Origin: Amycolatopsis mongoliensis
GTDB taxonomy: Bacteria; Actinomycetota; Actinomycetes; Mycobacteriales; Pseudonocardiaceae
Reading direction: 5' to 3'
NCBI RefSeq assembly: GCF_030285665.1
Contig: NZ_CP127295.1
Coordinates: 9,238,001-9,302,000 of the forward strand
DNA length: 64,000 bases
In this document: in pieces, positions 17,364 to 34,070 of the stretch
Numbering within the stretch: position 1 is the stretch's first letter
Layout: every line of letters starts with the position of its first letter
Translations under genes and position numbers: made by a program
The notes under the pieces: generated by a model
Seen by the model: the letters and a program-made list of their open reading frames with translations, nothing else
Told to the model about the DNA's origin: nothing
The model's database searches: none

Positions 17364-17390
17364 GACAGGACGCCACCGCGGTTTGTGACA
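17364..17390 (-). promoter_or_regulatory. ECF41-type promoter (ferritin-like gene)
   Basis: On the minus strand: TGTCACA, 16 nt, TGTC. The -35 box matches the published ECF41 consensus TGTCACA; the -10 box resembles CGTC. It overlaps a perfect 11-bp inverted repeat (17381-17391 and 17397-17407, 5-nt spacer) formed by two face-to-face TGTCACA boxes. Confidence 0.75.
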
Positions 17391-17397
17391 GCCGGGC

Positions 17398-17424
17398 TGT
17401 CACAAACCGGGAGCCTGTCCGGTC
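17398..17424 (+). promoter_or_regulatory. ECF41-type promoter (NmrA-type gene and flavoprotein)
   Basis: TGTCACA, 16 nt, GGTC, ending 55 nt before ATG 17480. It forms the right arm of the inverted repeat shared with the divergent ferritin-like gene, so the two promoters may be occupied competitively. Confidence 0.75.
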
Positions 17425-17479
17425 CTTGCTGGAGAACGACGTCCCGGAGCGGCCGGGACGCGGGAGGAGGAGGCACACC

Positions 17480-18238
17480 ATGAAGATCGTCGTGATCGGC
17501 GGCAGCGGGCTGATCGGCTCGAAACTCGTCCGGAAACTGGGAGAACACGGCCACGAAGCGGTCCCCGCGTCACCCGACTCGGGCGTGAACACGCTGACCG
17601 GCGAAGGGCTGGCCGAAGTGCTGGAGGGCGCCCAGGTCCTGGTCGACGTCTCGAACTCGCCCTCGTTCGCCGACGACGCCGTGCTGGACTTCTTCCGCAC
17701 CTCCACCGGAAACCTCCTCGCCGCCGGAGAGAAGGCCGGGGTGGGGCACCACGTGGCGTTGTCGGTCGTCGGCACCGAACGGCTCACCGAAAGCGGCTAC
17801 TTCCGCGCGAAGATCGCGCAGGAAAAGCTCATCAAGGAGTCCGGGCGGCCGTACTCGATCGTGCACGCCACGCAGTTCTTCGAGTTCGTGGGCAGCATCG
17901 CCCAGGCGGCGACCGACGGGACCACCGTGCGCCTGTCGGACGCGCGCATCCAGCCCATGGCCGCCGACGACGTGGCCGCCGCGGTCGGCCGGGTCGCTGT
18001 CGGCGCACCGCTGAACGGCACCCTCGAGGTGGCCGGCCCCGAGCAGTTCGGGCTCGACGAGCTGATCCGCACCGGGCTGGCCTTCCGCGGTGACCCCCGC
18101 GAGGTCGTCACCGACCCGGAAGCGCGCTACTTCGGTGCCCTGCTGGACAAGGACATGCTGCTGCCCGGTCCGGGCGCGCAGCTGGCCGCCACCCGGTTCG
18201 CCGACTGGCTCCCGCTGAACCCGCCGCCGGCGAAGTGA
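17480..18238 (+). CDS. NmrA-like NAD(P)-binding oxidoreductase
   Basis: A 252-residue atypical SDR: N-terminal KIVVIGGSGLIGSKLVRKLG (Rossmann motif at residues 2-21), an LSVVGTERL strand, and YSIVHATQFFEFVGSIAQ as the substrate-side segment. Members bind NADP and act as redox sensors, quinone reductases or epimerase-like enzymes. It is 52 percent-like by eye to the protein at 21361-22107 (shared HGHEAVP, NSP, ATQFFEF, RIQP and AADDVA segments). ECF41 sigma genes are classically linked to carboxymuconolactone decarboxylase, oxidoreductase or epimerase genes, and this is a natural candidate. GGAGGAGG precedes ATG 17480. The stop is 2 nt before the flavoprotein ATG. Confidence 0.8.
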   Translation: MKIVVIGGSGLIGSKLVRKLGEHGHEAVPASPDSGVNTLTGEGLAEVLEGAQVLVDVSNSPSFADDAVLDFFRTSTGNLLAAGEKAGVGHHVALSVVGTERLTESGYFRAKIAQEKLIKESGRPYSIVHATQFFEFVGSIAQAATDGTTVRLSDARIQPMAADDVAAAVGRVAVGAPLNGTLEVAGPEQFGLDELIRTGLAFRGDPREVVTDPEARYFGALLDKDMLLPGPGAQLAATRFADWLPLNPPPAK

Positions 18239-18240
18239 CC

Positions 18241-19964
18241 ATGACCGAGCACCAGATCGCGACGTCGGTCCTCGTCATCGGGACCGGCGGGGGCGGCCTG
18301 CGCGCCGCGATCGAGCTGGCCGAGCGGGGTGTCGACGTCCTCGCGGTCGGCAAGCGGGCGAAGTCGGACGCGCACACCACACTCGCCGCCGGCGGCATCA
18401 ACGCGGCCCTGGCGACGATGGACCCGGAAGACTCGTGGCAGCAGCACGCGGCGGACACGCTCAAGGAGAGCTACCTGCTGGCCGATCCCGAGACCGTGCG
18501 GATCGTGACCGAGAACGCCGCCCGGGGCATCGAGGACCTCGAACGCTATGGAATGCCCTTCGCGCGTGAGGCCGACGGGAAGATCTCCCAGCGCTTCTTC
18601 GGTGCGCACACCTACCGCCGGACCGCGTTCGCCGGTGACTACACCGGACTGGAGATCCAGCGCACGCTGGTCAACCGGGCGGCGCAGCTCGGCGTCCCGG
18701 TCCTGGACACCGTCTACGTCACGCGAATCCTGGTCCGGGACAACGTCGTCTTCGGCGCCTACGGATTCGACCTCGCGGACGGGACGCGGTACGTGATCCA
18801 CGCCGACGCGGTGATCCTCGCCGCGGGCGGGCACACGCGCATCTGGCGCCGCACCTCGTCCCGCCGCGACGAGAACACCGGCGACTCCTTCCGGCTGGCC
18901 GTGCTGGCCGGCGGCCGGATCCGGGACGCCGAACTGGTCCAGTTCCACCCGTCGGGTCTGATCGCGCCGGAGAACGCCGCGGGCACGCTCGTCTCGGAGG
19001 CGGCCCGCGGCGAAGGCGGGGTGCTGCGCAACGCGCTCGGCGAGCGGTTCATGGCCGAGTACGACCCGGACCGCATGGAACTGTCCACTCGCGACAGAGT
19101 GGCGCTGGCGGCCTACACCGAGATCAAGGAGGGACGCGGGACGCCGGGTGGCGGGGTGTGGCTCGACGTCTCGCACCTGCCGAGGGAGACGATCATGCGC
19201 CGGCTCCCCCGCGTCTACCAGACCCTGCTCGAACTGCAGATGCTCGACATCACCCGGGAACCGATCGAGATCGCGCCCACCGCGCACTACTCGATGGGCG
19301 GGGTCTGGGTCCGGCCGGAGGACCACGGCACCGGCGTCGAGGGCCTGTACGCCCTCGGCGAGGCGGCGAGCGGTCTGCACGGCGCGAACCGGCTCGGCGG
19401 CAACTCCCTGATCGAGCTGCTGGTCTACGGCCGCATCGTCGGTGAAGCCGCCGCGCGCTACTCACGCGACCTGGGAGCGCAACAGCGGTCGCCGGCGGCG
19501 ACGGAGGAAGCCCGGCGCGAGGTCGACGAGCTGCTGGCCGCCGACGGCCCGGAGAACGTACGCGCCCTGCAGCGCACGGTGCGGAACACCATGACCGAAC
19601 ACGCCGGGGTGGTCCGCCACGAGACCGGCCTGCGCGCCGGCCTGGCCGAGCTGGACGAACTGGAAAGCCGGGTGCGTGCCGTGGGCGTCCACCCCGACAT
19701 CGCCGGGTTCCAGGACCTGGCGCACGCGTTCGACCTCAAGGCGGCGGTGCTGGCCGCGCGGGCCACGCTCGAATCGGCGCTCGAACGCCGCGAGACGCGT
19801 GGCTGCCACAACCGCGCGGACCACCCGGACCTCGACGAGTCGCTGCGGGTGAACCTCGTCTGGTCCGGGCCCGGGCGGGTCGCGCGCGAAGAGCTTCCCC
19901 GGTCCCGGGGGAAATCGCTTCGCTCATGCGCGAGGTGTCCACCGCGGGCAAGCTCGTCGAATGA
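18241..19964 (+). pseudogene. fumarate reductase/succinate dehydrogenase-type flavoprotein, C-terminal frameshift
   Basis: The N-terminal 550 residues are intact: TSVLVIGTGGGGLRAAIELA (FAD-binding), THTTLAAGGINAAL-like segment, HPSGL, the catalytic-loop region and EAASGLHGANRLGGNSLIE. The family oxidises succinate or reduces fumarate-like substrates with covalent or bound FAD. Near 19897-19900 (CCCC) one base seems missing: the frame leaves REELP, while another frame continues PVPGEIASLMREVSTAGKLV and stops at 19964, exactly the normal end. As written, the protein would run on to 20370 through the sigma gene. Loss of one C from a C-run may be a sequencing error. Only the last 20 residues are affected, so a functional protein is quite possible. 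No iron-sulfur partner gene is adjacent. Confidence 0.8.
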
Positions 19965-19970
19965 TCCTCC

Positions 19971-20000
19971 GGGGGGCCCGGCCGCGCGGCCGGGCCCCCC
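19971..20000. terminator. 30-nt perfect palindrome, terminator-like hairpin
   Basis: A perfect inverted repeat with 15-nt arms (GGGGGGCCCGGCCGC and its complement) and no spacer, directly after the flavoprotein stop and 27 nt before the sigma factor start. There is no U-tract, as is common in actinomycetes. It probably separates sigma factor expression from the upstream ECF41-driven unit. Confidence 0.7.
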
Positions 20001-20026
20001 GGGAGCCGACGTCGTAGAGTCGTGGG

Positions 20027-20935
20027 GTGGCGGATTCCGGGATGAGTGCCGAACTCGGCGACCTGGCCGATCTCGAGGCGGCCACGGCCGCCTTCACCCA
20101 GGTGCGGCCGCGCCTGTTCGGGATCGCCTACCGCATGCTCAGCAGCGTCACCGAGGCCGAGGACCTGGTGCAGGAGGTCTGGCTGCGCTGGCAGACCTAC
20201 GACCGGTCCACGGTGACCAACCCGGAAGCGTTCTTGGCGACGACCACCACCCGGCTGGCCATCAACGTCCTCCAGTCGGCCCGGAAACGCCGGGAGACCT
20301 ACATCGGGCCGTGGCTGCCCGAACCGGTCGACACCGCCGCGGACCCGTACCTGGGCGCCGAACGCGGTGAAGCGCTGGAGTTCGCGACCCTGCTGCTGAT
20401 GGAGAAGCTCACCCCCGGCGAACGCGCGGCCTACGTGCTGCGGGAAGCCTTCGACTACTCCTACGCCCAGATCGCCGACATCCTGTCGTCGACCGAAGCC
20501 GCCGTGCGCCAGCTGGTCAGCCGGGCCCGCAAGCACCTCACGAGCGAGCGGCACGCGTCCGTGCCCGCGGCCGAGCAGCGGGAACTGCTGACCACGTTCC
20601 TCGCCGCCGCCCGGTCCGGCGACCTGGCCGAACTGGAGCGGCTCTTCACCCCGGACGTGACCAACCTGTCCGACGGCAACGGCCGCAAGGGCGTCGCCCG
20701 CCGTCCGCTCGTGGGCAGCGTCCGGGTGGCGAAGTTCCTGCAGGCGATCTCCAGCTGGTTCTGGGACGACATCGACATCGAGTGGACCCAGGCCAACGGG
20801 CAGACCGCCGCCGTGCTCCGCCAGGACGGCATCGTGTACGGCCTGCTCACGGTCAGCGCCACCGCCGAGGGCATCGATCAGCTGCTGTGGCTGGTCAACC
20901 CCGAAAAGAACAAGGCGGTGCAGGTCCCGGCCTGA
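20027..20935 (+). CDS. sigJ: ECF41-group sigma factor (SigJ-like) with SnoaL-like C-terminal domain
   Basis: A 302-residue sigma-70 factor. Region 2 is FTQVRPRLFGIAYRMLSSVTE with EDLVQEVWLRW; region 4 is GERAAYVLREAFDYSYAQIA with VRQLVSRARKHL. The linker carries WLPEP. A C-terminal NTF2/SnoaL-like domain of about 110 residues contains SDGNGRKGVARRP and LVNPEKNKAV, corresponding to the DGGGK- and NPDKL-type motifs of ECF41 proteins. In this group the C-terminal domain replaces an anti-sigma factor. The start is GTG 20027; ATG 20042 is an alternative. I see no ECF41-type promoter just upstream, but eight lie within 15 kb on either side. Symbol used by analogy with mycobacterial sigJ. Confidence 0.85.
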   Translation: MADSGMSAELGDLADLEAATAAFTQVRPRLFGIAYRMLSSVTEAEDLVQEVWLRWQTYDRSTVTNPEAFLATTTTRLAINVLQSARKRRETYIGPWLPEPVDTAADPYLGAERGEALEFATLLLMEKLTPGERAAYVLREAFDYSYAQIADILSSTEAAVRQLVSRARKHLTSERHASVPAAEQRELLTTFLAAARSGDLAELERLFTPDVTNLSDGNGRKGVARRPLVGSVRVAKFLQAISSWFWDDIDIEWTQANGQTAAVLRQDGIVYGLLTVSATAEGIDQLLWLVNPEKNKAVQVPA

Positions 20936-20955: not shown

Positions 20956-21321
20956 GTGTTCGACCCGCATGACGCGACCGTGCGCCGGTTCGCCGCGGCG
21001 TGCCGCCGGCGGGACAGCGCCGCGCTCGAAGCCGTCCTCGGCCACGACGCGGTCGCGACGTGCGACGGCGGCGGCCTGGTGCCCTCGCCGCCTGGGCCGG
21101 TGCGCGGCGCGGCGGAGGTCGCCCGGCTGGTCATCGACGTCATGGGCGGGCGCGCGGGCACCGAGCTGACCGTCGAATCCGTCAACGGCCGCGCCGGGCT
21201 CGCCCTGCGGCACGTCTCCCGCGCCGTCGCGGTCGTCGCCGCCGAGACGGCCGGGCCCCAGGTCACCGCGCTCTGGATCGTGCTCGACCCGGCCAAGCTG
21301 ACCGGCTGGCACCGCGGTTGA
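20956..21321 (+). CDS. stand-alone SnoaL-like domain resembling the ECF41 C-terminus
   Basis: A 121-residue NTF2-fold protein: ATVRRFAAACRRRDSAALEA, CDGGGLVPSPPGPVRG, and a C-terminal TALWIVLDPAKLTGWH. The CDGGG and DPAKL segments recall the DGGGK and NPDKL motifs of the ECF41 sigma C-terminal domain, yet here no sigma domains are attached. GGGAGG is 5 nt before GTG 20956, and the gene follows the sigma stop by 20 nt, so they are surely cotranscribed. Inference: it may compete for or sense the ligand or surface that controls the sigma factor, or be a small enzyme. Confidence 0.7.
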   Translation: MFDPHDATVRRFAAACRRRDSAALEAVLGHDAVATCDGGGLVPSPPGPVRGAAEVARLVIDVMGGRAGTELTVESVNGRAGLALRHVSRAVAVVAAETAGPQVTALWIVLDPAKLTGWHRG

Positions 21322-21360: not shown

Positions 21361-22107
21361 TCACCGTGCCAGCCACTCCCGGTAGGTGGTCTTCGCGATG
21401 ACGGCCCCGTCCTTGGCGACGAGGGCGTCGCCGGACGCGGCCGCGAACAGGCCGGCCTGGTCGTCGGTCACGACGGGACGCCGGTCACCCTGGGCGGCGA
21501 GGGTGATCCGGCCCAGCTCGTCGAGGGCGAACACCTCCGGCCCGGCGACGTTCCGGGTCCCCCGCAGCGGGGCCCCCATGCTGACCTCGGCCACCGCCTG
21601 GGCGACGTCGTCCGCCGCGATGGGCTGGATGCGCGTCGCGGGCAGGCGGACGGTGTTCTCGTCGGAGGTCCAGGACATCGTCGCGGCCATGAACTCGAAG
21701 AACTGCGTGGCGCGGACGATCGAGTACGGCACCGGCCCGGCCATGAGGATGTCCTCCTGCAGCACCTTGGCGCGGTAGTAGACCAGGTCCGGCACCAGGT
21801 CGGCGCCCACGATCGAGAGGATGACCGCGTGGCCGACCCCGGCCGCGCCCGCCGCCTCCAGCAGGTTGTCCATGGTCGTCCGGAAGAACGCGGGCGAAGC
21901 CTCGTCGAACGTCGGCGAGTTCGTCAGGTTGACGACGACGTCGGCCCCGGCCAGCGCTTCGGCGAGGCCCTTTCCGCTGAGCAGGTCCAGCCCGGTGGAC
22001 GGCGAGTGCGGGACGGCTTCGTGCCCGTTCGCGGCCAGGATCTTGACGACCCGGGAGCCGATGAGCCCGGTCCCGCCGATGACGGCGATCTTCACTTCCT
22101 CGACCAT
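21361..22107 (-). CDS. NmrA-like NAD(P)-binding oxidoreductase, second copy
   Basis: A 248-residue atypical SDR with KIAVIGGTGLIGSRVVKILA at the N-terminus, NLTNSPTFDEASPAFF, ILSIVGAD, and VPYSIVRATQFFEFMAATM. Clearly a paralogue of the 17480 protein. The start ATG 22107 overlaps the end of the cupin gene by 16 nt, so the two are coupled and share the ECF41-type promoter at 22498-22524. Likely an NAD(P)H-dependent reductase or sensor; the substrate is unknown. Confidence 0.8.
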   Translation of the reverse strand: MVEEVKIAVIGGTGLIGSRVVKILAANGHEAVPHSPSTGLDLLSGKGLAEALAGADVVVNLTNSPTFDEASPAFFRTTMDNLLEAAGAAGVGHAVILSIVGADLVPDLVYYRAKVLQEDILMAGPVPYSIVRATQFFEFMAATMSWTSDENTVRLPATRIQPIAADDVAQAVAEVSMGAPLRGTRNVAGPEVFALDELGRITLAAQGDRRPVVTDDQAGLFAAASGDALVAKDGAVIAKTTYREWLAR

Positions 22108-22460
22108 CCCTTCGCCCGGAGTTCGTCCTCGGTCACGAGGTCGACCATCGGCTTGCCCGGCTCGCAGAGCATGGTGACGGTGAACCGCACCGGGACGTCG
22201 TCGCGGTTGTTGCCGTCCTGGTAGTGGATGACCTCGCCGCCCGGTTCCCAGAACGCCTCACCGGCGCGGACGACCCGCGGCGGCTCGCCTTCGAGCTCGA
22301 AGACCATCTCGCCCTCCAGCACGTAGCCGAAGGCCGGTCCGGGGTGGCGGTGCGGCGGGGTGCCGGGGTCGCCCGGCGGGTACTCGATGACGATGGTCAT
22401 CGCATGCGCCCCCTCCGGGATGAAGGGCGGTTTCGCCTCCTGTAGCACGGTCAATGACAT
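22092..22460 (-). CDS. cupin-domain protein
   Basis: A 122-residue single-domain cupin: GTPPHRHPGPAFGYVLEGEMVFELEGE is motif 1 (two His and Glu metal ligands) and FWEPGGEVIHYQDG is motif 2 (His). Single cupins act as small metal-dependent dioxygenases, isomerases or decarboxylases of aromatic-type compounds. GGAGG is 7 nt before ATG 22460. First gene of an ECF41-driven two-gene unit. Confidence 0.8.
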   Translation of the reverse strand: MSLTVLQEAKPPFIPEGAHAMTIVIEYPPGDPGTPPHRHPGPAFGYVLEGEMVFELEGEPPRVVRAGEAFWEPGGEVIHYQDGNNRDDVPVRFTVTMLCEPGKPMVDLVTEDELRAKGWSRK

Positions 22461-22497: not shown

Positions 22498-22524
22498 GAC
22501 CGGACAGCCCCGCGATTTGTGACC
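22498..22524 (-). promoter_or_regulatory. ECF41-type promoter (cupin and NmrA-like 2)
   Basis: On the minus strand: GGTCACA, 16 nt, GGTC, ending 37 nt before ATG 22460. The 16-nt spacer ends in GGCTGTCC, as in several of the other sites. Confidence 0.75.
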
Positions 22525-24936: not shown

Positions 24937-25011
24937 GGACCGAGTGTAGGTCGCCGTGATCACCTGGATCCAGTGACGACCGCTCACCTGATGGGTGACG
25001 AACCTGGCCCC

Positions 25012-25965
25012 ATGACCACAACGAACGAACTGCCGGACTTCGCGCCGGTACCGCACTCCGCGCACGGCCCCGCCGTCAACGAGCAGGGTTACTTCGTCGG
25101 CCGCGTGGAGAAGAACCTCTACTGGGTCACCGACGGCGGCTACCAGGCCGCGTTCCTGACCACCCCCGACGGTGTGGTGCTGTTCGACGCGCCCCCGACC
25201 ATCGGGCACAACCTGCAGCGCGCCGTCGACGAGATCGCGTCGGCCAACGGCGTGTCCAACAAGGTGACGCACCTCGTCTACTCCCACCACCACGCCGACC
25301 ACATCGGCGCCTCCTCGTTGTTCGGCAAGGACGTGGTGCGAGTCGGCCACGCCGACACCAAGCGGCTGCTGCAGCGCTACGACGACCCGGCGCGGCCCCT
25401 GCCCGACGTCACCTTCGAGCAGGACCACACACTGCGGGTGGGCGGCGAGCGCATCGACCTGGCCTGGCGCGGCACGAACCACACGCCGGACAACATCTAC
25501 CTCCACCTGCCCGACCACGACACCCTGATGCTCATCGACGTCGTGGTGCCGGGCTGGGGATCGTTCGCCGCCTTCAACGTCAACAGCGATGTGCCCGGCT
25601 CCATGGCCGCCCCCGGCACCGCGCTGTCGTTCCCGTGGAAGCACTTCATCGGCGGCCACCTCGGCCGCCTGGGCACCCGCGACGACGTCGTGCTGCACGG
25701 GCAGTACATCGAGGACATCGCGGAGAGCGCGCGAGCGGCGTTGTCCACTGTGGATCCGATGCCGTTCTACGCCAAGTACGGCGACAACACCTGGGCGGCG
25801 GTGAAGGCTTACCTCGACACGGCGACCGAGTACGCCGCGGCGCCCGTGGTCCGGAAATACGCCGGGGTGCTGGGCGCGGCCGACGTCTTCATCGCCAGCA
25901 CGACGTTCGTCATCCTGGAGTCCCTGCGGCTGGAGGCCGGGGTCGGCCTGCAGATCCACCCGTGA
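25012..25965 (+). CDS. MBL-fold metallo-hydrolase
   Basis: A 317-residue metallo-beta-lactamase-fold protein with the HxHxDH motif in SHHHADHIG (His92, His94, Asp96, His97), FEQDHTLRVGGERIDL, and the second metal-site region HTPDNIYLHLPDHDTLMLIDVV. No signal peptide is visible. Members hydrolyse lactones, thioesters or beta-lactam-like bonds, so a lactonase is one possibility. ATG 25012 has only a weak ribosome site. A damaged relative lies at 26077-27035 on the other strand. No ECF41-type box is seen upstream. Confidence 0.8.
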   Translation: MTTTNELPDFAPVPHSAHGPAVNEQGYFVGRVEKNLYWVTDGGYQAAFLTTPDGVVLFDAPPTIGHNLQRAVDEIASANGVSNKVTHLVYSHHHADHIGASSLFGKDVVRVGHADTKRLLQRYDDPARPLPDVTFEQDHTLRVGGERIDLAWRGTNHTPDNIYLHLPDHDTLMLIDVVVPGWGSFAAFNVNSDVPGSMAAPGTALSFPWKHFIGGHLGRLGTRDDVVLHGQYIEDIAESARAALSTVDPMPFYAKYGDNTWAAVKAYLDTATEYAAAPVVRKYAGVLGAADVFIASTTFVILESLRLEAGVGLQIHP

Positions 25966-25975
25966 GCCGTCGAAC

Positions 25976-26015
25976 GTGCCGAGCGGCTGTGCCCGACACC
26001 GCGCCGCCTCGGCAC
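25976..26015. terminator. terminator-like hairpin
   Basis: Arms GTGCCGAGCGG (25976-25986) and CCGCCTCGGCAC (26004-26015) pair with one bulge around a 17-nt loop, 10 nt after the MBL-fold gene. Confidence 0.6.
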
Positions 26016-26076
26016 TCGGCCGGCGCCGGCATCGGTCCGGAACGACCTGACCCACCCCGTCGAGGAGCCCCACGTG

Positions 26077-27035
26077 TTACGGCCGGGTGCCGGAGGGGCC
26101 GAGTTCGCCGAAGTCGATGCGCAGCGACTCGAGCATGGCCATGGCGTTGTCGACGGTGAAGACGTCGGCGGCGGCGAGAACGCCGGTGTACTTGGCGGCG
26201 ACCGGTGCGGCGGCTGTCGCGGCGACGGCGTCGAGATAGGCCTTGAAGATGGCCCAGGAGTTGCCGCTCGGCCCGTACTTCTCGTGGAAGGGGGCGGGGT
26301 CGACCGAGGCCTCGGCTGCGCGGGTGCCGGCCAGGAGGTCGGCGACGTACTGCTTCTGGACGGTGGCGTCGGCGCGGACGCCCAGCCGGGAGAGAGCACG
26401 TCGACGACCATGAGCGTGGCGTAGGCCGGCGCGTGGACGAAGATGTTGTCCGGGGAGTGGCTCGGACCGTGGTAGGCGAGTTCGAGGTGCTCGCCGGCGA
26501 CGTGCAGGACGTAGCGGTCGTCGAAGGTCACCGTGGGTGCCGGACGGCTGGGGTCGACGTCGATGCGCAGCAGGCGGCGGGTCTCGGTGTGGCCGATGCG
26601 CACCACGTCCTTGCCGAACAGGGAGGCGGCTCCGATGTGGTCGGCGTGGGAGTGGGAGTACACCAGGTGCGTGACCTTGCCGGGTCGGCCGTCGGCGCGG
26701 GTCACCTCCTCGATGGCCCGCAGCAGGTTGTGCCCGAGGGTGGGCGGTGCGTCGACGAGCACGACGTCCTCCCTCGTGTGAGGAACATGGCCTGGTAGTA
26801 GGAGTCGGTGACCCAGTACAGGTTGCCCTTGATCTGCCCGACGAAGTAGCCGTCGGCGTTGAGCGCGGGCCCGACCGAGCCGGCCGGGATCGGGGCGTAG
26901 CCCGGAAGACCGGGCGAGCCGGTCGCGGAAGCGGTGCCCGGGAAGGCGCCGGGCAGCGAGACGGCGGTGGGAACCTCGGCGGCGACCGACGCGCGCCTCA
27001 AGAACGCGCGGCGGCCGGCGGGCTCAGGTAGTCAT
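26077..27035 (-). pseudogene. MBL-fold metallo-hydrolase pseudogene
   Basis: A ribosome site (AGAGGA) and ATG at 27035 are followed by MTT and then a stop or frame change. In the next frame comes GRRAFLRRAS, which looks like a degraded twin-arginine leader, and NADGYFVGQIKGNLYWVTDS, matching the 25012 protein. Near 26775 the frame shifts again, giving LVDAPPTLGHNLLRAIEEV and SHSHADHIGAASLFGKDVVR with an intact HxHxDH motif. At about 26395 the protein jumps from DVLSPGW straight to LGVRADATVQKQYV, losing about 40 residues relative to the paralogue and changing frame once more. It ends in GELGPSGTRP and a TAA at 26077. At least three breaks and one internal deletion: a true pseudogene. It is the third gene of the ECF41-driven unit beginning at 27637. 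Confidence 0.8.
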
Positions 27036-27068: not shown

Positions 27069-27422
27069 TCAGGAGGGGTGGAGTTCGACGACGGCGCGAT
27101 AGCCGGCAGGTTCCGAGGTGATGTGCAGGCCCGGATCGTCGAACATGCGCCGCAGCGAGGCATGCCATTCGGGGTTGCCGGTGGCCTTGTCGAGCGCGGT
27201 GCCCGAGGACCACTCGGCGATGTGGACGAACCGCACCTCGGGGGCGTCGGCGAGCGGCCGGTGCAGGCGGGAGCGGATGAAGCCGGGCTGGGCCGACATG
27301 ATCCGGGCGTTCTCCTGGTACACCTCGACGAAGTAGCCGGCTTCGGCGGCCGGCACGGTGTAGTGCTTGATGACGGTGACCGGCTCGTCGACACCGGTCT
27401 TCGATTCCAGGGATTCGGTCAC
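27069..27422 (-). CDS. ABM/dimeric alpha-beta barrel family protein
   Basis: A 117-residue protein. The core VTVIKHYTVPAAEAGYFVEV, QPGFIRSRLHRPL, FVHIAEWSSGTALDKATG and HASLRRMFDD fits the antibiotic biosynthesis monooxygenase fold. These small cofactor-free proteins oxidise aromatic substrates or degrade haem; the residues needed for haem binding are not recognised. GTG 27422 overlaps the stop of the 27419-27637 gene by 4 nt. Probably the second gene of an ECF41-driven unit. Confidence 0.75.
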   Translation of the reverse strand: MTESLESKTGVDEPVTVIKHYTVPAAEAGYFVEVYQENARIMSAQPGFIRSRLHRPLADAPEVRFVHIAEWSSGTALDKATGNPEWHASLRRMFDDPGLHITSEPAGYRAVVELHPS

Positions 27423-27637
27423 CGGTTTCCCCTTTCCCCTTCCTCGACCGCTTCGACAGCGCCGAGAAGTCCGCGGAGGTTGACCTCGTAGCGTTCGGCC
27501 TCGGTGGGGTCGAACTGCCATTCGGTGACCGGGGTGCGGGCGGCGTCTTCGAGGTGGCTCGATTCGGCGATGTCCAGCTCGGCCTCCACCTCGATTTCGA
27601 GCCCGTGCAGGAACTGTCCGTTGTCCGGCGTGCTCAT
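27419..27637 (-). CDS. small acidic hypothetical protein
   Basis: A 72-residue, strongly acidic protein (LEIEVEAELDIAESSHLEDA, then EWQFDPTEAERYEVNL). No family recognised. GGAGGAG precedes ATG 27637. It leads a unit with the ABM protein (4-nt overlap) and the MBL-fold pseudogene, driven by the ECF41-type promoter at 27685-27711. Charge and size would suit a partner or chaperone-like role, which is a guess. Confidence 0.65.
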   Translation of the reverse strand: MSTPDNGQFLHGLEIEVEAELDIAESSHLEDAARTPVTEWQFDPTEAERYEVNLRGLLGAVEAVEEGERGNR

Positions 27638-27684: not shown

Positions 27685-27711
27685 GACAAGACAGCCCGCC
27701 GTGTTGTGACA
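27685..27711 (-). promoter_or_regulatory. ECF41-type promoter (acidic protein, ABM, MBL unit)
   Basis: On the minus strand: TGTCACA, 16 nt, TGTC, 47 nt before ATG 27637. The spacer ends in GGGCTGTCT. Confidence 0.75.
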
Positions 27712-27733: not shown

Positions 27734-27760
27734 GGTCACGAACGCCGGCGCTGCGCTGTC
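27734..27760 (+). promoter_or_regulatory. ECF41-type promoter (LtrA unit)
   Basis: GGTCACG, 16 nt, TGTC, ending 46 nt before ATG 27807. The least canonical of the eight -35 boxes, but spacing and -10 box agree. Back to back with the promoter at 27685. Confidence 0.65.
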
Positions 27761-27806: not shown

Positions 27807-29003
27807 ATGAACACCAGGATCCGGATCCGCGTCCGGATGAGCGCCCGCCCGATCGACGAACCGCACCGCGCGTCGAGCCAGCTCGAGCTGCTGTTCGACC
27901 TCGTCTTCGTGGTCGCCGTCGCGGCCGCCACCGCCCAGCTCGCGCACCACATCGCCGACGGACACGCCTGGACCGGCCTGATCGGGTTCCTCCAGGTGTT
28001 CTTCGCGATCTGGTGGGCGTGGATGAACTTCACGTGGTTCGCGTCGTCCTACGACACCGACGACGTGGCCTACCGGCTGCTGACCATGGTGCAGATGGCC
28101 GGGGTGCTCGTCCTCGCCGCCGGGGTGCCCGCCACGGCCACCGGCGACTACCGCGCCGTCGCGGCCGGCTACCTCGTCATGCGGATCGGGCTCGTCACCC
28201 AGTGGTTGCGGGCCGGCCTCGAGGATCCGGCGCGCAGGCGGACCGCGTTCCGGTACGCCACCGGCATCACCGTCCTGCAGATCGGCTGGGTGGGCTGGCT
28301 CCTCCTCGGCGAGACGGGTGTCCTTTCGCCGGGCACCCGGCCGGTGTGCTTCCTCGCGCTGGCTGCTGCGGAACTCGCGGTGCCGCGCTGGGCCGAGCGG
28401 CCCGGCGCCACCACCTGGCACCCGCACCACATCGCCGAGCGCTACGGGTTGTTCACGATCATCCTGCTCGGCGAGAGCGTCTTGGCCGCGATCACGGGTG
28501 TCCGGGGAGCTTTGCAGGCGGCGGAGATCAGCGCCGCGTTCGTCACGATCGCGGTCTCCGGACTCGTGCTGCTCTTCGCCACCTGGTGGCTGTACTTCCT
28601 GGAACCGGCCGGGGACGGGCTGAGCGATCGCCGTGAAGGGTCCTACCTGTGGGGCTACGGCCACTTCGGCATCTTCGCGGCGCTCGCGGCACTCGGCGCG
28701 AGCCTGGAGATCGCGGTCGAGGACACCGGACACCACCTGCCGGCCTCACCGCTTCTGATCAGCTACGCCGTCGCGGCCTCCGTGGGCGTGTTTCTCGTGC
28801 TCCTGTGGCTGGTCCACGTGCCCATCGTGGCGAGGACCGTCCTGCGTCCCGGCGCGGTCCTGACCTGCGCCACCGTCGTGTTCCTGCTCCCGCTCGCCGC
28901 GCCGTGGACCGGTGTGGCCGTCGTGGTCGCGGGCATCGCAGCGGCCTGCGCCCTGCTGGTCACTTTCACCATCACCCTGGAAAGAAAAGGAAATCCCTCA
29001 TGA
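27807..29003 (+). CDS. low temperature requirement A (LtrA) family membrane protein
   Basis: A 398-residue multi-pass membrane protein. SSQLELLFDLVFVVAVAAAT and QVFFAIWWAWMNFTWFASSY are hallmark LtrA segments, as is HHIAERYGLFTIILLGESVL. About ten to eleven hydrophobic helices are visible. LtrA is named from a Listeria growth phenotype; its biochemical function is not known. ATG 27807 was chosen; ATG-like starts at 27780 (GTG) and 27840 are alternatives, as no clear ribosome site decides. The stop overlaps the next start (ATGA). First gene of an ECF41-type unit. Confidence 0.75.
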   Translation: MNTRIRIRVRMSARPIDEPHRASSQLELLFDLVFVVAVAAATAQLAHHIADGHAWTGLIGFLQVFFAIWWAWMNFTWFASSYDTDDVAYRLLTMVQMAGVLVLAAGVPATATGDYRAVAAGYLVMRIGLVTQWLRAGLEDPARRRTAFRYATGITVLQIGWVGWLLLGETGVLSPGTRPVCFLALAAAELAVPRWAERPGATTWHPHHIAERYGLFTIILLGESVLAAITGVRGALQAAEISAAFVTIAVSGLVLLFATWWLYFLEPAGDGLSDRREGSYLWGYGHFGIFAALAALGASLEIAVEDTGHHLPASPLLISYAVAASVGVFLVLLWLVHVPIVARTVLRPGAVLTCATVVFLLPLAAPWTGVAVVVAGIAAACALLVTFTITLERKGNPS

Positions 29004-29974
29004 CCGAGCACATCCTCGAACCGGCCGCGCAGGACTTCGCGGACGCGACGGCGAAGCCGCCGTTCCAGTACGAACTCGGCCCCGAAAGCGGGCGGAAGGT
29101 CCTCGACGTCCAAGCCGCCCCGATCGGCCTGCTGCCGGTCGACGAGAAGTGGATCACGGTGCCGGCTCCGGTCGGCGACGTCCGCGTGCGCATCGTCAAA
29201 CCGGCCGGTGCGGCCGGTCCCCTGCCCGTGGTCCTCTAGGTTCACGGTGGTGGCTGGGTCTTCGGCAACGCGGGCACGCACGACCGGCTGGTGCGGGAAC
29301 TGGCCGCCGGGGCCGACGCGGCGGTCGTTTTCGTCGAGTACTCGCGGTCGCCCGAGGCGCGGTACCCCGTCGCGGTCGAACAGGTCTACGCGACCGCGCG
29401 GTGGATCACGACCGACGGTGCCGCCGAGGGCTTGGACGCGTCCCGCCTCGCGGTCGCCGGTGACTCGGTCGGCGGCACCATGTCCGCTGTCGTCGCGATC
29501 CTCGCCAAGCGGCGCGGGGACGTGACGTTGCGGCACCAGTCGCTGTACTACCCGGTCACCGACGCCGGTCAGGACACCGGCAGCTACCGCGAGTTCGCCG
29601 ACGGCCCGCACCTCACGGCCAAGGCCATGGCCTGGTACTGGGACGCCTACCTGCCCGAGGTGTCCCAGCGCGCCGACGTCACCGTGTCCCCGCTGCGCGC
29701 GGGTCCGGAGGACCTCGCCGGACTGCCGGAGGCCTTCGTGGTCGTCGACGAGAACGACGTCCTGCGCGACGAGGGCGAGGCCTACGCGCGCAAGCTCGTC
29801 GCGGCCGGCGTGCACACGACCTGCGTCCGCTACAACGGCACCCTCCACGACTTCATGATGCTCAACCCGCTCCGCGGGACCGCGGCCGCGACCGGCGCGA
29901 TCGAGCAGGCGTGCCGGGTGCTGCGGAAAGCGCTCCACGGCTGGGAAACCGACACAGAAGGAGAAGAACCATGA
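29000..29974 (+). pseudogene. alpha/beta hydrolase (HSL-type esterase) with in-frame amber codon
   Basis: The whole protein lies in one frame, 325 codons, but codon 80 is TAG (29237-29239). It falls in the oxyanion motif: PLPVVL-stop-VHGGGWVFGN, where the family has Tyr or Ile before the HGGG. A TAC-to-TAG change explains it. The rest is intact: nucleophile elbow GDSVGG, FVVVDENDVLRDEGEAYARK around the acid, and LHDFMML with the His. Hormone-sensitive-lipase-type esterases hydrolyse short esters. Unless suppressed or re-started, the gene is off. It is coupled to LtrA upstream and to the next hydrolase downstream by ATGA overlaps. Confidence 0.8.
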
Positions 29975-30693
29975 CCGAACAGAAGCCGACCGCCGTCCTG
30001 GTGCACGGTGCGTTCGCGGAATCCGCGAGCTGGCACGGTGTCGTCGAACGACTGCTGGCAAGACAGGTGGACGTCGTCGCGGCGGCGAACCCGCTGCGCG
30101 GCCTCACGAGCGACGCCGCGTACGTCCGTGACGTCGTCGCCGGCATCGGCGGACCGGTCGTGCTGGCCGGACATTCCTACGGCGGCATGGTGATCACCGA
30201 GGCGGCGGCCGGCAACCCGGCCGTGACCGGGCTCGTCTACGTGTGCGCGTTCGCCCCCGAGCGCGGGGAGAGCGCGCTGCAGCTGTCGGCGAAGTTCCCG
30301 GGCAGCACACTCGGCGAAACGCTGACCGCCTACCCGGTCGCCACCGGAGGCACCGAGTTCGCGATCCGGCCGGACGCCTTCCACCACCAGTTCGCCGCCG
30401 ACGTCCCGGCCGCCGAGGCGGCGGTGATGGCCGCGACCCAGCGCCCGGTCACCGAGGCGGCGCTCACCGAGGGCCTCCCGGCGGAAACCCCGGCGTGGCG
30501 GTCGGTCCCGTCCTGGTTCGTGTTCGGCGACCAGGACCGCAACATCCCCGTCGCCCTGCACCGGTACCTGGCGGAACGCGCCGGCGCCAAGGGCGTCCGG
30601 GAGGTGGCGGGCGGGTCGCACGCCCTCAGCGTGTCGGACCCGGCCGCGGTCACGGCCGCGATCCTCGACGCCGTCGGCCGCCCGGCCGCGTAA
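29971..30693 (+). CDS. alpha/beta hydrolase
   Basis: A 240-residue alpha/beta hydrolase: TAVLVHGAFAESASWHGVVE gives the oxyanion His-Gly, LAGHSYGGMV the nucleophile elbow (Ser about 70), FGDQDRNIP the acid region and GGSHALSVS the His. This is the small esterase/haloperoxidase-like group found often in stress regulons. AAGGAG lies 8 nt before ATG 29971. Third gene of the ECF41-type LtrA unit. Confidence 0.8.
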   Translation: MTEQKPTAVLVHGAFAESASWHGVVERLLARQVDVVAAANPLRGLTSDAAYVRDVVAGIGGPVVLAGHSYGGMVITEAAAGNPAVTGLVYVCAFAPERGESALQLSAKFPGSTLGETLTAYPVATGGTEFAIRPDAFHHQFAADVPAAEAAVMAATQRPVTEAALTEGLPAETPAWRSVPSWFVFGDQDRNIPVALHRYLAERAGAKGVREVAGGSHALSVSDPAAVTAAILDAVGRPAA

Positions 30694-30699
30694 GGAACT

Positions 30700-30760: not shown

Positions 30761-30787
30761 TGTCACACGCCGCAGGGCTGTCTTGTC
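30761..30787 (+). promoter_or_regulatory. ECF41-type promoter (peroxidase and SDR)
   Basis: TGTCACA, 16 nt, TGTC, ending 49 nt before GTG 30837. The spacer ends in GGGCTGTCT, identical in that part to the promoter at 27685. Confidence 0.8.
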
Positions 30788-30836: not shown

Positions 30837-32177
30837 GTGACGACCGTGGTGACCCCCATCGCGGAGGCGGAAGCCGGGCACCCGTCGCCGGCCGAACCGA
30901 GCCGGTACGGGCGCATGTTCCCCGGCCTCGCCCCGCTGGTCACCGACCCACGGCTGCTGACGCGCGCGGGCGGCCACGGTGGGATCTGCGACGCGGCGGC
31001 CACGCCCGGACCGGGCGGCGACGACGACGCGACCGAGGCCGCCGGGTGGCCGTTCTTCGGCCAGCTGATCGCGCACGACACCACCGCCGACCGCTCTTCC
31101 CTCACCAGTGACCTGCACCCGGGAGCGCTCCGCAACGCCCGCGCACCGAGGCTCGACCTGGAGATGCTCTACTCCGACGGCCCCATCGGTTCGCCGTTCC
31201 TCTACGACACCGGGGATCCCGCGAAGTTCCTGCTCGGCCACCCAGATGGTCGCGACGTACCCCGCAACCAGCAGGGGGTGGCCCTGATCGGCGACCCCCG
31301 CAACGACTCTCACCTGGTCGCACTGACCCTGCACACCGCACTGCTGCGGGCACACAACCACATCGTGGACCTGCTACGGGACGACGGCGTGCCGGATGCT
31401 TTCGACCGGGCGCGGCAGACCCTCACCTGGCACTACCAGTGGATCGTGGTCCACGACTTCCTGCCCAGGCTCGTCGGGCTGCCCCTGGTCGAGCACGTGC
31501 TCGACGAGGGTGGCCGGTGGTTCGCGCCGTCCCCCGGACAGGCCCGCATCCCACTGGAGTTCTCCCACGCGGCCTTCCGATACGGCCACAGCCAGATCCG
31601 CCACACCTACCGGCTCGCCCACGGGGGCCCCGAACTGCCGCTCCTCCCGGACTTGGTCGGGTTCCGGCCGGTGCCCGCAAGCCGGTGCCTCGATCTCGCG
31701 CTCATCTTCGACCTGCCCGGCCGCCCGCCGGCACAACGGGCGAAACGCATCGACGGCCGCCTTCCCGCGAGCCTCATCGCACTGCCCGAGCAGATCACCG
31801 GCACGGTCGACACCGCCGCCCACCGGTCGCTCGCCGTCCGCGACCTCCTCCGCGGCGAGACCACCGGACTGCCCAGCGGCGAATCCGTCGCCCGCCACAT
31901 CGGCGTGCCGCCGTTAACCGCGGACGAAGGTTCCTGGCCACACGGCACGCCACTGTGGATCTACGTCCTCAACGAAGCCCAGCACCACGGCGGCGGCGAC
32001 CGCCTCGGCCCGGTCGGCGGCCGCATCGTCGCGGAAGTCCTGATCGGACTGCTGCGCGCCGACCCGGCGAGCTACCTGAGCCGCGAACCCGACTGGCGAC
32101 CGACCCTGCCCGCCGCGGGACCGGCCTACGGCCTGGCCGACCTGCTCACGCTGGGCCACACGCAGCCGGCAAGCTGA
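30837..32177 (+). CDS. animal-type haem peroxidase family protein
   Basis: A 446-residue protein of the peroxidase-cyclooxygenase superfamily. FFGQLIAHDTTADRS carries the distal His region (GQxIxHD), QQGVALIGDPRNDSHLVALT holds the catalytic Arg region, and LHTALLRAHNHIVDLL with EFSHAAFRYGHSQIRHTY covers the proximal His helix. Bacterial members oxidise halides, phenols or small organics with H2O2. No signal peptide is visible, so it is likely cytoplasmic. AGGAGG precedes GTG 30837. It is followed after 21 nt by the SDR gene, both under the ECF41-type promoter at 30761. Confidence 0.8.
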   Translation: MTTVVTPIAEAEAGHPSPAEPSRYGRMFPGLAPLVTDPRLLTRAGGHGGICDAAATPGPGGDDDATEAAGWPFFGQLIAHDTTADRSSLTSDLHPGALRNARAPRLDLEMLYSDGPIGSPFLYDTGDPAKFLLGHPDGRDVPRNQQGVALIGDPRNDSHLVALTLHTALLRAHNHIVDLLRDDGVPDAFDRARQTLTWHYQWIVVHDFLPRLVGLPLVEHVLDEGGRWFAPSPGQARIPLEFSHAAFRYGHSQIRHTYRLAHGGPELPLLPDLVGFRPVPASRCLDLALIFDLPGRPPAQRAKRIDGRLPASLIALPEQITGTVDTAAHRSLAVRDLLRGETTGLPSGESVARHIGVPPLTADEGSWPHGTPLWIYVLNEAQHHGGGDRLGPVGGRIVAEVLIGLLRADPASYLSREPDWRPTLPAAGPAYGLADLLTLGHTQPAS

Positions 32178-32198: not shown

Positions 32199-32957
32199 AT
32201 GCCTGGAAAGCCGCAGTTCGAGGGACTGGTCGCGATCGTGACCGGGGCGAGTTCCGGGATCGGCCGCGCGGTGGCTCTCGATCTCGCCGAAGCGGGGGCT
32301 CGGGTGCTGGGTGTCGGGCGGCGCGCCGACCGGCTTGCCGAAAGCGCCGGCCGCCACCCGTCCATCGAGACTGTTGTCGCCGACATCTGCGCCGACGAGG
32401 CGCCCCGGAAGATCGTGGAGGCGGCCGTCGACCGCTGGGGACGGCTCGACATCCTGATCAATAACGCGGGTGCGTTCGTCGGGATGCCGCTGGAAGCGGT
32501 GAGCGCGCAATCCATCGAGGACATCATCGCCGTCAACGTCACGGCGCCGAGCATGCTCGCGCACGCCGCGCTGCCCCAGCTGATCGAACACCAGGGCGCG
32601 ATCGTCAACGTCTCGAGCACCTACGGCCACCGTCCCCTCCCTGGCGGGGCTCACTACGGCGCGTCGAAAGCCGCGATCGAGTCACTCACCCGCAGCTGGG
32701 CACTGGAACTCGCGCCCCACCGCGTCCGGGTCAACGCCGTCGCGCCCGGCCCGACCGAGTCGGAAGCACTGCTCGCCGCCGGGTTGGGCGAGGAACAGAT
32801 CACGCAGGTGAAAGCGGGCGAGGCCGGCAGGATTCCACTCGGCCGCCGCGGTGAGCCCGAGGAGATCGCCCACTCGATCCGCCACCTCGCCGATCCGGCG
32901 ACCACCTGGGTGACCGGTCAGGTTCTCGCGGTCGACGGCGGGCTCGCGCTCACCTGA
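32199..32957 (+). CDS. short-chain dehydrogenase/reductase
   Basis: A 252-residue classical SDR: VAIVTGASSGIGRAVALDLA, NNAG at about residue 88, Ser in VSSTYGHRPLP, and the Tyr-Lys pair in HYGASKAAIESLTRSW. It lacks a helix-alpha extension. This is the intact paralogue of the SDR pseudogene at 14423-15042 (same TESEAL and RIPLGRRG segments). AAGGAGG precedes ATG 32199. Probably NAD(P)-dependent oxidation or reduction of a small alcohol or ketone, coupled to the peroxidase. Confidence 0.85.
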   Translation: MPGKPQFEGLVAIVTGASSGIGRAVALDLAEAGARVLGVGRRADRLAESAGRHPSIETVVADICADEAPRKIVEAAVDRWGRLDILINNAGAFVGMPLEAVSAQSIEDIIAVNVTAPSMLAHAALPQLIEHQGAIVNVSSTYGHRPLPGGAHYGASKAAIESLTRSWALELAPHRVRVNAVAPGPTESEALLAAGLGEEQITQVKAGEAGRIPLGRRGEPEEIAHSIRHLADPATTWVTGQVLAVDGGLALT

Positions 32958-33011
32958 GGGCCCGGCGGGAGATTCTCGGTATGAAGCACGACGGCCGGAG
33001 TCCGCGGCGAC

Positions 33012-33038
33012 GGTCACAAATCCCACCGCTGTCCGGTC
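33012..33038 (+). promoter_or_regulatory. ECF41-type promoter (VOC gene)
   Basis: GGTCACA, 16 nt, GGTC, ending 42 nt before ATG 33081. Spacer ends in CGCTGTCC. Confidence 0.75.
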
Positions 33039-33080
33039 TTCGCCGGCGGCGACGACGACGACCGTGAGGAGATTTCAGTG

Positions 33081-33497
33081 ATGGAAGGTTTTCCCGCGCC
33101 GGATCAGGGCCTGATTGTGACGCACTTCCTGACCGTGCGCGACGTCGAAGTGTCGCGCGAGTTCTACGCCGGGATCTTCGGCGGGCACGTCGTGCTGGCC
33201 GAGAACCCCGCCACCGTGCGCGTCGCCAACACGTGGATCATCATGAACCCCGGCGGCGGCCCCACCCCGGACAAGCCGGACGTGACCCTGACCGCGCCCG
33301 AGCCCGGTGACCCGGTGTCGGCGTTCCTCAACGTCCGGGTGGCCGACATCGCGCAGTTCCACGCTCGAGCCCGCGCGAAGGGCGCGGAGTTCCTGACCGA
33401 GCCGCAGGACCGCGGGGCCGAGGTGCGGTGCTACCTCCGCGACCCGGACGGCTACCTGATCGAGATCGGCCAGACGACCGGCCTGCTCACCAGGTGA
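33081..33497 (+). CDS. VOC family (glyoxalase/bleomycin resistance-type) protein
   Basis: A 138-residue vicinal oxygen chelate protein with two beta-alpha-beta-beta-beta halves: TVRDVEVSREFYAGIFGGHV and VRVADIAQFHARARAKGAEF, ending in LRDPDGYLIEIGQT (Glu ligand). Possible roles: dioxygenase, isomerase, or drug or aldehyde binding. GAGGAG lies 9 nt before ATG 33081 or 6 nt before GTG 33078; either start is possible. A single-gene unit with its own ECF41-type promoter and a terminator. Confidence 0.8.
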   Translation: MEGFPAPDQGLIVTHFLTVRDVEVSREFYAGIFGGHVVLAENPATVRVANTWIIMNPGGGPTPDKPDVTLTAPEPGDPVSAFLNVRVADIAQFHARARAKGAEFLTEPQDRGAEVRCYLRDPDGYLIEIGQTTGLLTR

Positions 33498-33503
33498 CCG
33501 CAT

Positions 33504-33527
33504 GCCGGCGGGCGCACACCCGCCGGC
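33504..33527. terminator. bidirectional terminator hairpin
   Basis: Arms GCCGGCGGG and CCCGCCGGC around a 6-nt loop, between the convergent VOC and cupin genes. Confidence 0.75.
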
Positions 33528-33532
33528 AGCCG

Positions 33533-34003
33533 TCAGTCCACGAAATACGAGTCGTGTTCATCAAGGAACTTGGCGCGTTCGTCCTGCGCGATCTCGCCGA
33601 TCTTCTCGAAGTACTCCTCGCGCGGCGCGCCAGGCGTGAACAGCAGCAGCATCTCGGCCGGGGAGTCGGCGTCGTTGCGGAAGGCGTGCAGCCCGCCCTG
33701 CGGCACGTGGAGGAAGTCGCCGGCCCGGCCCTCGATCCACTTCTCCCCATTGAACAACCGGACCGTGCCGTCAAGGATGTAGAAGGACTCCGAGATCGTC
33801 CGGTGGAAATGCGTGCTAGGTCCACCGGCCCGCGGCTTCATCATGACGCGGTACAGGCCGTACTCACCGCGCGTCTGTTCGGTAGTAGCCAGGTAGTGAA
33901 TGCCGTCACCGGGCGCACCGAGGTCGGGCGGGGTATCGGCCGCGCGGAAGTTCGCGCTGACCTCGCCAGAGCTGCCGAAATAGACCTTGTCCGGGTACGA
34001 CAT
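33533..34003 (-). CDS. cupin-domain protein
   Basis: A 156-residue cupin: THFHRTISESFYILDGTVRLF (His-x-His and Glu ligands) and DFLHVPQGGLHAFRNDADSP (motif 2 His). The C-terminal EEYFEKIGEIAQDE helix is common in quercetinase-like or small dioxygenase cupins. ATG 34003 is preferred; ATG 34012 is in frame just upstream. Own ECF41-type promoter at 34044-34070. Confidence 0.8.
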   Translation of the reverse strand: MSYPDKVYFGSSGEVSANFRAADTPPDLGAPGDGIHYLATTEQTRGEYGLYRVMMKPRAGGPSTHFHRTISESFYILDGTVRLFNGEKWIEGRAGDFLHVPQGGLHAFRNDADSPAEMLLLFTPGAPREEYFEKIGEIAQDERAKFLDEHDSYFVD

Positions 34004-34043
34004 GACCACCATCCCTGTCTGTGCTGTCTCTCTCGACAACACA

Positions 34044-34070
34044 GACAAGGCGATGACGGTCCGTGTGACA
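34044..34070 (-). promoter_or_regulatory. ECF41-type promoter (second cupin)
   Basis: On the minus strand: TGTCACA, 16 nt, TGTC, 40 nt before ATG 34003. Last of the eight sites; the segment 34071-34315 beyond it holds no feature I can support. Confidence 0.75.

Follow-up and report, generated by a model that had tools for sequence, protein, structure and literature searches.

A predicted multi-promoter regulon of an ECF41/SigJ-like sigma factor in Amycolatopsis mongoliensis

Sigma factors of the ECF41 group are widely distributed, and a published study describes their signal as unknown, their output as generally one gene or operon, and their promoter consensus as TGTCACA at −35, a 16-nt spacer, and CGTC at −10 (Wecke et al. 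2012, PMC3426412). Here, we analysed a 64-kb stretch of the Amycolatopsis mongoliensis genome (contig NZ_CP127295.1, positions 9,238,001 to 9,302,000; hereafter the window, whose own coordinates are used below unless genome positions are indicated), in which an ECF41/SigJ-like sigma gene lies in a 16.7-kb island with eight candidate promoter sites. Judged from sequence, these sites, of the form TGTCACA-N16-(T/G)GTC, are very probably promoters of this sigma factor, which would thereby command a regulon of several transcription units. The sites themselves, their conservation, their co-occurrence with the sigma gene, and a clade-specific −10 box emerge directly from the genome comparisons.

Foremost among the described systems are the ECF41 factors of Bacillus licheniformis and Rhodobacter sphaeroides, which (PMC3426412) likewise combine TGTCACA and a 16-nt spacer with a fused C-terminal regulatory domain and a linked COE-type gene, the COE-then-ECF order being common and the promoter lying before the COE gene. 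However, those factors have a single target and a −10 box of CGTC or TGTT, whereas seven or eight local promoters with KGTC are predicted here; moreover, the island sigma gene has its own promoter-like box, and the regulatory domain also occurs as a stand-alone copy. RpoE9 of Sinorhizobium meliloti (PMC6180224) is an ECF41 factor with a matching −35/−10 motif, though, unlike the island, it has a single target by experiment. Azospirillum RpoE10, mentioned in PMC12826043, is an ECF41 factor of wider output (lateral flagella), but is proteobacterial and acts on different genes. The SigG1-RsfG system of ECF56 (PMC7730460) likewise joins a SnoaL_2-fused ECF factor to a co-transcribed regulator gene behind it, though RsfG is an anti-sigma factor without a Pfam domain, while the adjacent protein in the island is homologous to the C-terminal domain of the sigma itself. 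Among solved structures, SigJ of Mycobacterium tuberculosis (5xe7) is closest to the linked sigma. At the level of abstracts, the open-licence PMC literature yielded neither a multi-promoter actinomycete ECF41 regulon nor a stand-alone ECF41 C-terminal domain. Against the published single-target view, a regulon of this kind, conserved in actinomycetes, would be new.

Promoter-like sites of the island

A search of the window with KGTCACR-N16-KGTC gave exactly eight matches, against an expectation of 0.70 and a maximum of four in 100 dinucleotide shuffles, and reproduced the positions and strands of all eight sites that a first-pass annotation had proposed. Counting both strands, the window has five TGTCACA heptamers, and each has a KGTC exactly 16 nt after it. 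That annotation had also equated the −35 box with the ECF41 TGTCACA and placed the sites shortly before start codons, and both claims hold: the box and also the 16-nt spacer match ECF41, and plausible start codons lie 37–55 nt beyond the −10 box at all eight sites. Across the own genome, which is one 10.8-Mb contig, the pattern has 63 matches, most of them of the GGTCACG type, against 35 for the reversed pattern. Eight of the 63 fall inside the island, where 0.10 would be expected, so the enrichment stands, but the degenerate pattern is too loose to discriminate genome-wide, and profiles were therefore used instead. Six of the 55 matches outside the island were inspected (L199-L204), and none had a target resembling the families of the regulon.

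Two profiles were built, R1 (39 columns) from 44 sites (eight from the window, one from a paralogue locus in the own genome, and 35 from other genomes) and R2 from the eight window sites alone. The sites, with the distance from the −10 box to the start codon and the R1 score, are as follows (G and L numbers denote compared genomes and loci).

17364..17390, minus strand: before the ferritin-like gene; 38 nt to ATG; 39.3 bits; conserved before FerL orthologues
17398..17424, plus strand: before the NmrA1-flavoprotein unit; 55 nt to ATG; 39.2 bits; conserved before NmrA1 orthologues
22498..22524, minus strand: before the cupin 1-NmrA2 unit; 37 nt to ATG; 38.9 bits; conserved before cupin 1 orthologues
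27685..27711, minus strand: before the unit of a small unknown protein and an ABM monooxygenase; 47 nt to ATG; 31.1 bits; conserved in G023 and G038
27734..27760, plus strand: before the LtrA-hydrolase unit; 46 nt to ATG; 30.3 bits; conserved in G023, G038 and G064
30761..30787, plus strand: before the haem peroxidase-SDR unit; 49 nt to GTG; 33.7 bits; conserved in G023, G064 and G078
33012..33038, plus strand: before the VOC/glyoxalase gene; 42 nt to ATG; 30.4 bits; 32.6 bits with the held-out matrix described below
34044..34070, minus strand: possible, weak site before cupin 2; 12.8 bits

In the own genome, R1 returned the first seven of these at E 8e-9 to 6e-6 and a site at genome position 8757055, in the paralogue locus, at E 0.004; these are its only matches at E<0.1, the next having E 0.37. 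Because all of them were training sites, a held-out control was run, in which a weight matrix made from the 35 other-genome sites scored the seven window sites at 32.6–52.4 bits and everything else in the window at 6 bits or below. With the same matrix, the 8757055 site reached 23.7 bits, against 12.2 bits for the next best position when 156 kb of the own genome beyond the window were scanned. R2 found all eight window sites at E<0.01, including 34044 (22.1 bits, E 0.002), and 8757055 at only E 0.30.

The island of eight units put forward in the first-pass annotation is thus solid for seven sites, but the eighth lacks independent support. Site 34044 lies at noise (R1 E 2.05 despite its membership in the training set, and below 6 bits with the held-out matrix), which speaks against counting it as a promoter of the regulon. 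Conservation cannot test it, because 79 congeners gave no match at E<=1e-40 to cupin 2, the gene behind it. By their sequences, seven sites are certain to form one family, and 34044 may be placed with them on account of its TGTCACA, 16-nt spacing, and position. That the sites are simply what a degenerate pattern hits by chance in GC-rich DNA would suit the preponderance of GGTCACG-type matches, the number returned by the reversed control, and the weak eighth site; still, the probability of this is negligible, since for seven of the eight the separation by profile and held-out matrix, the conservation before orthologues, and the fixed spacing rule chance out.

Several sites had also been said to share GGCTGTCY within the spacer, and this feature is real but loose, with KGTC or CGTC at N11 in 19 of 29 TGTCACA copies from the loci of 12 relatives. 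As an alternative −10 box, the N11 element (TGTC/CGTC) was rejected, for it varies among orthologous sites (TGCC, CGCC, GGCC), whereas KGTC at N16 is constant. The two divergent −35 boxes at 17377-17411 make up an inverted repeat, its arms of some 14 nt flanking a 3-nt centre, and a divergent TGTGACA lies no more than 20 nt upstream of the NmrA1 sites in eight of nine relatives.

The genes headed by the sites encode NAD(P)-, flavin-, haem-, metal- and ligand-binding proteins:

16279..17325, minus strand: ferritin-like protein FerL (PF12902)
17480..18238, plus strand: NmrA-like NAD(P)-binding protein 1 (NmrA1)
18235..19964, plus strand: fumarate reductase/aspartate oxidase-like flavoprotein, with a reading-frame change near the C-terminus
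21361..22107, minus strand: NmrA-like protein 2 (NmrA2), 53% identical to NmrA1
22092..22460, minus strand: cupin 1
27069..27422, minus strand: ABM-domain monooxygenase
27419..27637, minus strand: small unknown protein of 72 aa, with relatives in other loci
27807..29003, plus strand: LtrA family protein
29000..29974, plus strand: alpha/beta hydrolase (Abhydrolase_3) gene, interrupted by an in-frame TAG at 29237-29239
29971..30693, plus strand: alpha/beta hydrolase (Abhydrolase_6)
30837..32177, plus strand: haem peroxidase (An_peroxidase)
32199..32957, plus strand: short-chain dehydrogenase (SDR)
33081..33497, plus strand: VOC/glyoxalase protein
33533..34003, minus strand: cupin 2

Conservation and co-occurrence with the sigma gene

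The linked sigma recurs at 82–95% identity in twelve congeneric genomes, and sites are present in 11 of these 12 loci, where they precede FerL, NmrA1, cupin 1, the small protein of the ABM unit, LtrA, and the peroxidase, with gene order and content differing from locus to locus. The G064 locus illustrates this: cupin 1 is next to the peroxidase and its site, and FerL next to LtrA and its site. Among the 29 TGTCACA copies of the 12 loci, KGTC follows at exactly 16 nt in 27 and at 15 or 17 nt in none (this count, unlike the collection of the orthologous sites, did not require KGTC); in neighbouring stretches further from the sigma gene, KGTC stands at 16 nt in two of five copies.

On a wider scale, R1 at E<=0.01 matches 40 of 80 genomes of the genus, namely all 34 that have a sigma match at E<=1e-90 versus 6 of the 46 others. 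When the 15 genomes that supplied training sites are left aside, 19 of 19 sigma-positive genomes remain site-positive, though R1 was trained on the island sites and their orthologues and the genomes are related, so that P values overstate independence. Of the exceptions without such a sigma match, five carry a sigma relative at a site locus: a split copy in G067 and in G078, a third-clade sigma in G008 (47%) and, additionally, in G078, and a fragmented and a truncated copy in G045 and G021, respectively. Similarly, FerL (E<=1e-60) is found in 16 of the 80 genomes, all of them site-positive, and is directly preceded by a site in 14; in G008, FerL follows LtrA behind a site, and G055 has only a fragment, with no site detected. 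Third-clade sigmas (L270:7085-7663 and L271:13868-14470; 46–49% identity, with similarity ending near residue 216) lie among sites of the same motif, and the ECF41 linker signature was not found in them. In five further stretches from congeners (L273, L277, L278, L279, L286), with no linked sigma in the stretch, a lone site stands before a protein that has PSRxALKVGDI close to its start (metallo-beta-lactamase-fold-like).

Beyond the genus, we compared 80 GTDB loci with a sigma relative (a few of them from the same genus), and R1 sites at E<=0.01 are present in 16 of 20 loci with a sigma identity of at least 57%, but in 1 of 60 below it. The genes headed by these sites include NmrA1, NmrA2, the flavoprotein, FerL, LtrA, and the Abhydrolase_6 hydrolase, along with others such as NDH-2-like and universal-stress-like ones (names assigned by eye from the sequences). 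Within 394 genomes of the class, the sigma (E<=1e-75) occurs in 43, an R1 site in 25, and both in 23, at a site cut-off of E<=5e-4 that was picked after inspection of the table. Around 20 class sites, the annotated stretches (several with no clear target under our open-reading-frame rule) hold a sigma of this clade in four cases, another relative (42–58% identity, mostly partial) in seven, and none in nine; the sites are therefore dispersed, and the motif is apparently common to more than one sigma.

The −10 box itself differs. With its first base left free, 28 sites from 20 loci at sigma identities of at least 57% gave 16 T, 12 G, 0 C, and 0 A, while nine sites from 20 loci of more distant ECF41-like sigmas gave five C, three T, and one G. 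As T or G thus occupies 28 of 28 positions, against the published CGTC, this clade seems to have its own −10 preference; the −35 box and spacer agree with the ECF41 consensus. Of six more distant sigma loci of the own genome (L195-L198, L205, L206), three have TGTCACA-N16-CGTC, one (L195) a site of the TGTC type, and the other two no site, and hence both −10 types occur in this genome. At L195, the TGTCACA-N16-TGTC lies upstream of a distant ECF41 gene (40% identity), and the T/G type is accordingly not exclusive to this clade.

The assignment of the sites to the linked sigma has to be weighed against a paralogue in the same genome (genome positions 8756135-8756995, minus strand, 60% identical, 0.5 Mb away), which might drive the island alone or together with the linked sigma, leaving the latter redundant or a partial controller. 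The 8757055 site precedes its divergent NmrA gene and is thus of the same kind, G010 and G059, whose only E<=1e-90 match belongs to the paralogue clade, have sites before FerL, NmrA or cupin relatives, and such sites adjoin additional sigma relatives in other actinomycetes. However, genomes with the linked-sigma clade alone at E<=1e-90 (e.g. G038, G047, G023, G064) retain sites at the shared units, and we consider control by the paralogue unlikely.

Besides the weak eighth site, several observations weigh against the linked sigma as controller of a multi-unit regulon. The sigma gene itself has no motif site in this genome, in G040 no site surrounds the sigma, the only match being on another contig, and G058, conversely, is site-positive with no close sigma relative (best 44%). 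In G023, the VOC site has a 14-nt spacer instead of 16, which counts against that member. Four of the 20 loci at a sigma identity of at least 57% lack a site at E<=0.01, as do 20 of the 43 sigma-positive genomes of the class at 5e-4, and at E<=0.05 as many as 109 of the 394 class genomes match, much of this probably being noise. Moreover, the paralogue (60%) and, elsewhere, further sigma relatives (42–58%) also adjoin sites of this kind, so that the assignment of sites to a sigma is ambiguous.

Within the island, there is also a gene for another type of regulator:

22534-24936: LuxR-family ATPase regulator

The motif could thus be an operator of another regulator, such as this one, and merely resemble an ECF41 promoter; its location in the island and the long inverted repeat formed by the divergent −35 boxes at 17.39 kb would be in keeping with this. 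Nonetheless, among the loci of the 12 relatives, the LuxR regulator is intact only in G023 and reduced to a 55-aa relic in G038, whereas sites are kept in 11, and the motif has the −35 box, 16-nt spacing, and start-codon distance of an ECF41 promoter and tracks the sigma, which makes an operator highly improbable and favours promoters of the ECF41/SigJ-like sigma.

The regulator and a divergent metallo-beta-lactamase-fold gene together take up 22534-25965, and both are intact in G023. An SDR gene (14423-15111) and a second metallo-beta-lactamase-fold gene (25950-27001) are each split over frames, and, with the flavoprotein and Abhydrolase_3 genes, this makes four disrupted genes in about 15 kb. 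As the frame change of the flavoprotein (19860-19964) is absent from the five relatives compared, it would be a local mutation or a sequence error.

The linked sigma factor and its stand-alone domain

The features at the centre of the island are the following:

19968..20003, plus strand: GC-rich hairpin between the flavoprotein and sigma genes; terminator-like, no T run
20015..20020, plus strand: TAGAGT, putative housekeeping −10 box, 6 nt before the sigma GTG
20027..20935, plus strand: ECF41/SigJ-like sigma of 302 aa, with sigma2, sigma4, and a C-terminal SnoaL_2-like domain
20956..21321, plus strand: stand-alone ECF41 C-terminal (SnoaL_2/NTF2-like) domain of 121 aa; GTG start with GGAGG, 20 nt past the sigma stop

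The description of the gene at 20027 as ECF41-type is supported: its product has sigma2, sigma4, and the C-terminal extension, passes NCBIfam TIGR02957 (335.7 against a cut-off of 323.25), and aligns with SigJ over sigma2, sigma4, and part of that extension. It narrowly misses the SigJ model NF007214 (269.8, cut-off 271), and its SnoaL_2 Pfam score of 21.6 is below the cut-off of 27. In the PDB, the search gave SigJ (5xe7) at E 3.6e-48 and SigG1 (7qh5) at E 5.8e-13, and, being much nearer SigJ than SigG1, the linked sigma is not of the ECF56 type. Its linker, YIGPWLPEP, corresponds to the ECF41 signature YVGPWLPEP, as given in PMC7730460, and its end motif, NPEKN, is a partial match to the ECF41 NPDKL, the final L being lost in this clade; NPDKL is a conserved ECF41 trait and not the basis of group membership. 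A linked COE gene is present, as an NmrA-like/epimerase-family gene lies two genes upstream (Epimerase Pfam 22.9, cut-off 20.9) and directly adjoins the sigma in G047 and G017. The single-target behaviour described for ECF41, which does not define the group, is not what the sequence predicts, with seven strong predicted promoter sites before different units. With this sigma as the query, the own genome has 30 matches at E<=0.001, many of them to other ECF sigmas.

The first-pass annotation had found no motif copy before the sigma gene, and we can confirm this for the present genome. Such an absence fits the conserved TAGAGT box that the gene has of its own: TCGTAGAGT stands upstream of 13 of 18 sigma genes compared, and two of the five misses (L192, L091) have an extrapolated start. 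We take a TAGAGT 6 nt before the GTG to be the layout of a leaderless housekeeping promoter. The hairpin in front of it has a folding energy of −42.5 kcal/mol (z −4.1), and hairpins are also found in G038 and G023. While the gene order would fit autoregulation of the sigma by read-through from site 17398, the hairpin and TAGAGT argue for separate expression, and basal separate expression with post-translational control seems to describe this sigma. A motif site before the sigma gene itself does occur at the Kribbella locus L093.

The stand-alone SnoaL_2 gene beside the sigma gene was absent from the first-pass annotation. Its product corresponds to positions 166-278 of TIGR02957 (E 1.2e-18), and, at E<=1, its only match in a PDB sequence search was SigJ (5xe7, E 0.0098). 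The predicted model (pLDDT 90) has an NTF2-like fold, for which Foldseek places epoxide hydrolase chains first by E-value; by query-normalised TM, SigJ (0.68) and SigG1 (0.66–0.67) are the highest among the 50 matches listed. The domain has 275 homologues at E<=1e-5, and many of the 120 that were listed bear the name siderophore-interacting protein or sigma factor (e.g. P0010, P0026, and P0039, siderophore-interacting protein/sigma-70 factor).

Here, we noticed that the fused C-terminal domain has DGNG and NPEKN, whereas the stand-alone domain keeps DGGG and a (N/D)PxKL end, with (N/D)P(A/D)KL in all 19 aligned stand-alone copies (window plus 18). NPxKN-type ends are found in the window sigma and its close relatives, though G040 and G043 have an NPxKN-type sigma and no stand-alone gene. 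The median dN/dS over 66 pairs was 0.51 for the stand-alone gene, 0.50 for the C-terminal part of the sigma, and 0.26 for the sigma core, which suggests that the stand-alone gene is constrained but fast-evolving. We also surveyed 81 sigma genes, of which 76 had readable motifs after rows with under 50% identity, an uncovered C-terminus, or duplicates were dropped, and a stand-alone gene lies within 1.5 kb of 16 of 28 sigmas without the final L versus 9 of 48 with it (P 0.0009, descent ignored). As a general rule, the pairing of a lost NPxKL ending with a stand-alone domain was rejected, for independent pairs on the tree give no support, and, since the link is not independent of descent, it amounts to a single-clade observation. 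Two sigmas of this family lie close together with a stand-alone SnoaL_2 gene at L103 and L370, and the gene layout is identical in both.

We hypothesise that the stand-alone domain regulates the sigma in trans. One form of this idea, possible though rather doubtful at present, is a split ECF41 sensor. Duplication of the regulatory SnoaL_2 domain would have given rise to a separate protein with the canonical docking motifs retained, while the fused copy decayed; acting in trans, this protein would dock onto the sigma linker and serve as a ligand-responsive anti- or co-sigma factor.

Proposed mechanism and meaning

From these comparisons, we infer the recognition of the sites by the sigma, its control through SnoaL_2, the ligand, and the physiological role. 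A housekeeping-type TAGAGT promoter of its own would supply the sigma at a basal level. The fused C-terminal SnoaL_2 domain, perhaps together with the stand-alone protein, would keep it inactive until a small ligand or reactive compound in the NTF2-like pocket releases it. RNA polymerase would then initiate at seven, possibly eight, promoters, and the output would comprise the NmrA-like proteins, flavoprotein, ferritin-like protein, cupins, ABM monooxygenase, LtrA, hydrolases, haem peroxidase, SDR, and VOC protein. Together, these might detoxify a reactive organic compound or oxidant, and detoxification of a reactive compound is plausible as the function; the stress or xenobiotic response suggested in the first-pass annotation may likewise be the role.

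A type of protein thought to be a single-gene controller thus probably controls a whole set of genes. A conserved regulon with a recognisable promoter would offer many targets from which to deduce signal and function, plus a reporter for the inducer, and, with it, there is a sub-clade of apparently shifted −10 preference. The relatives of the stand-alone domain that are currently named siderophore-interacting protein or sigma factor would merit a corrected annotation, and the domain itself makes regulation in trans directly testable. Should the split sensor prove true, one ECF41 factor could run a whole regulon rather than a single gene.

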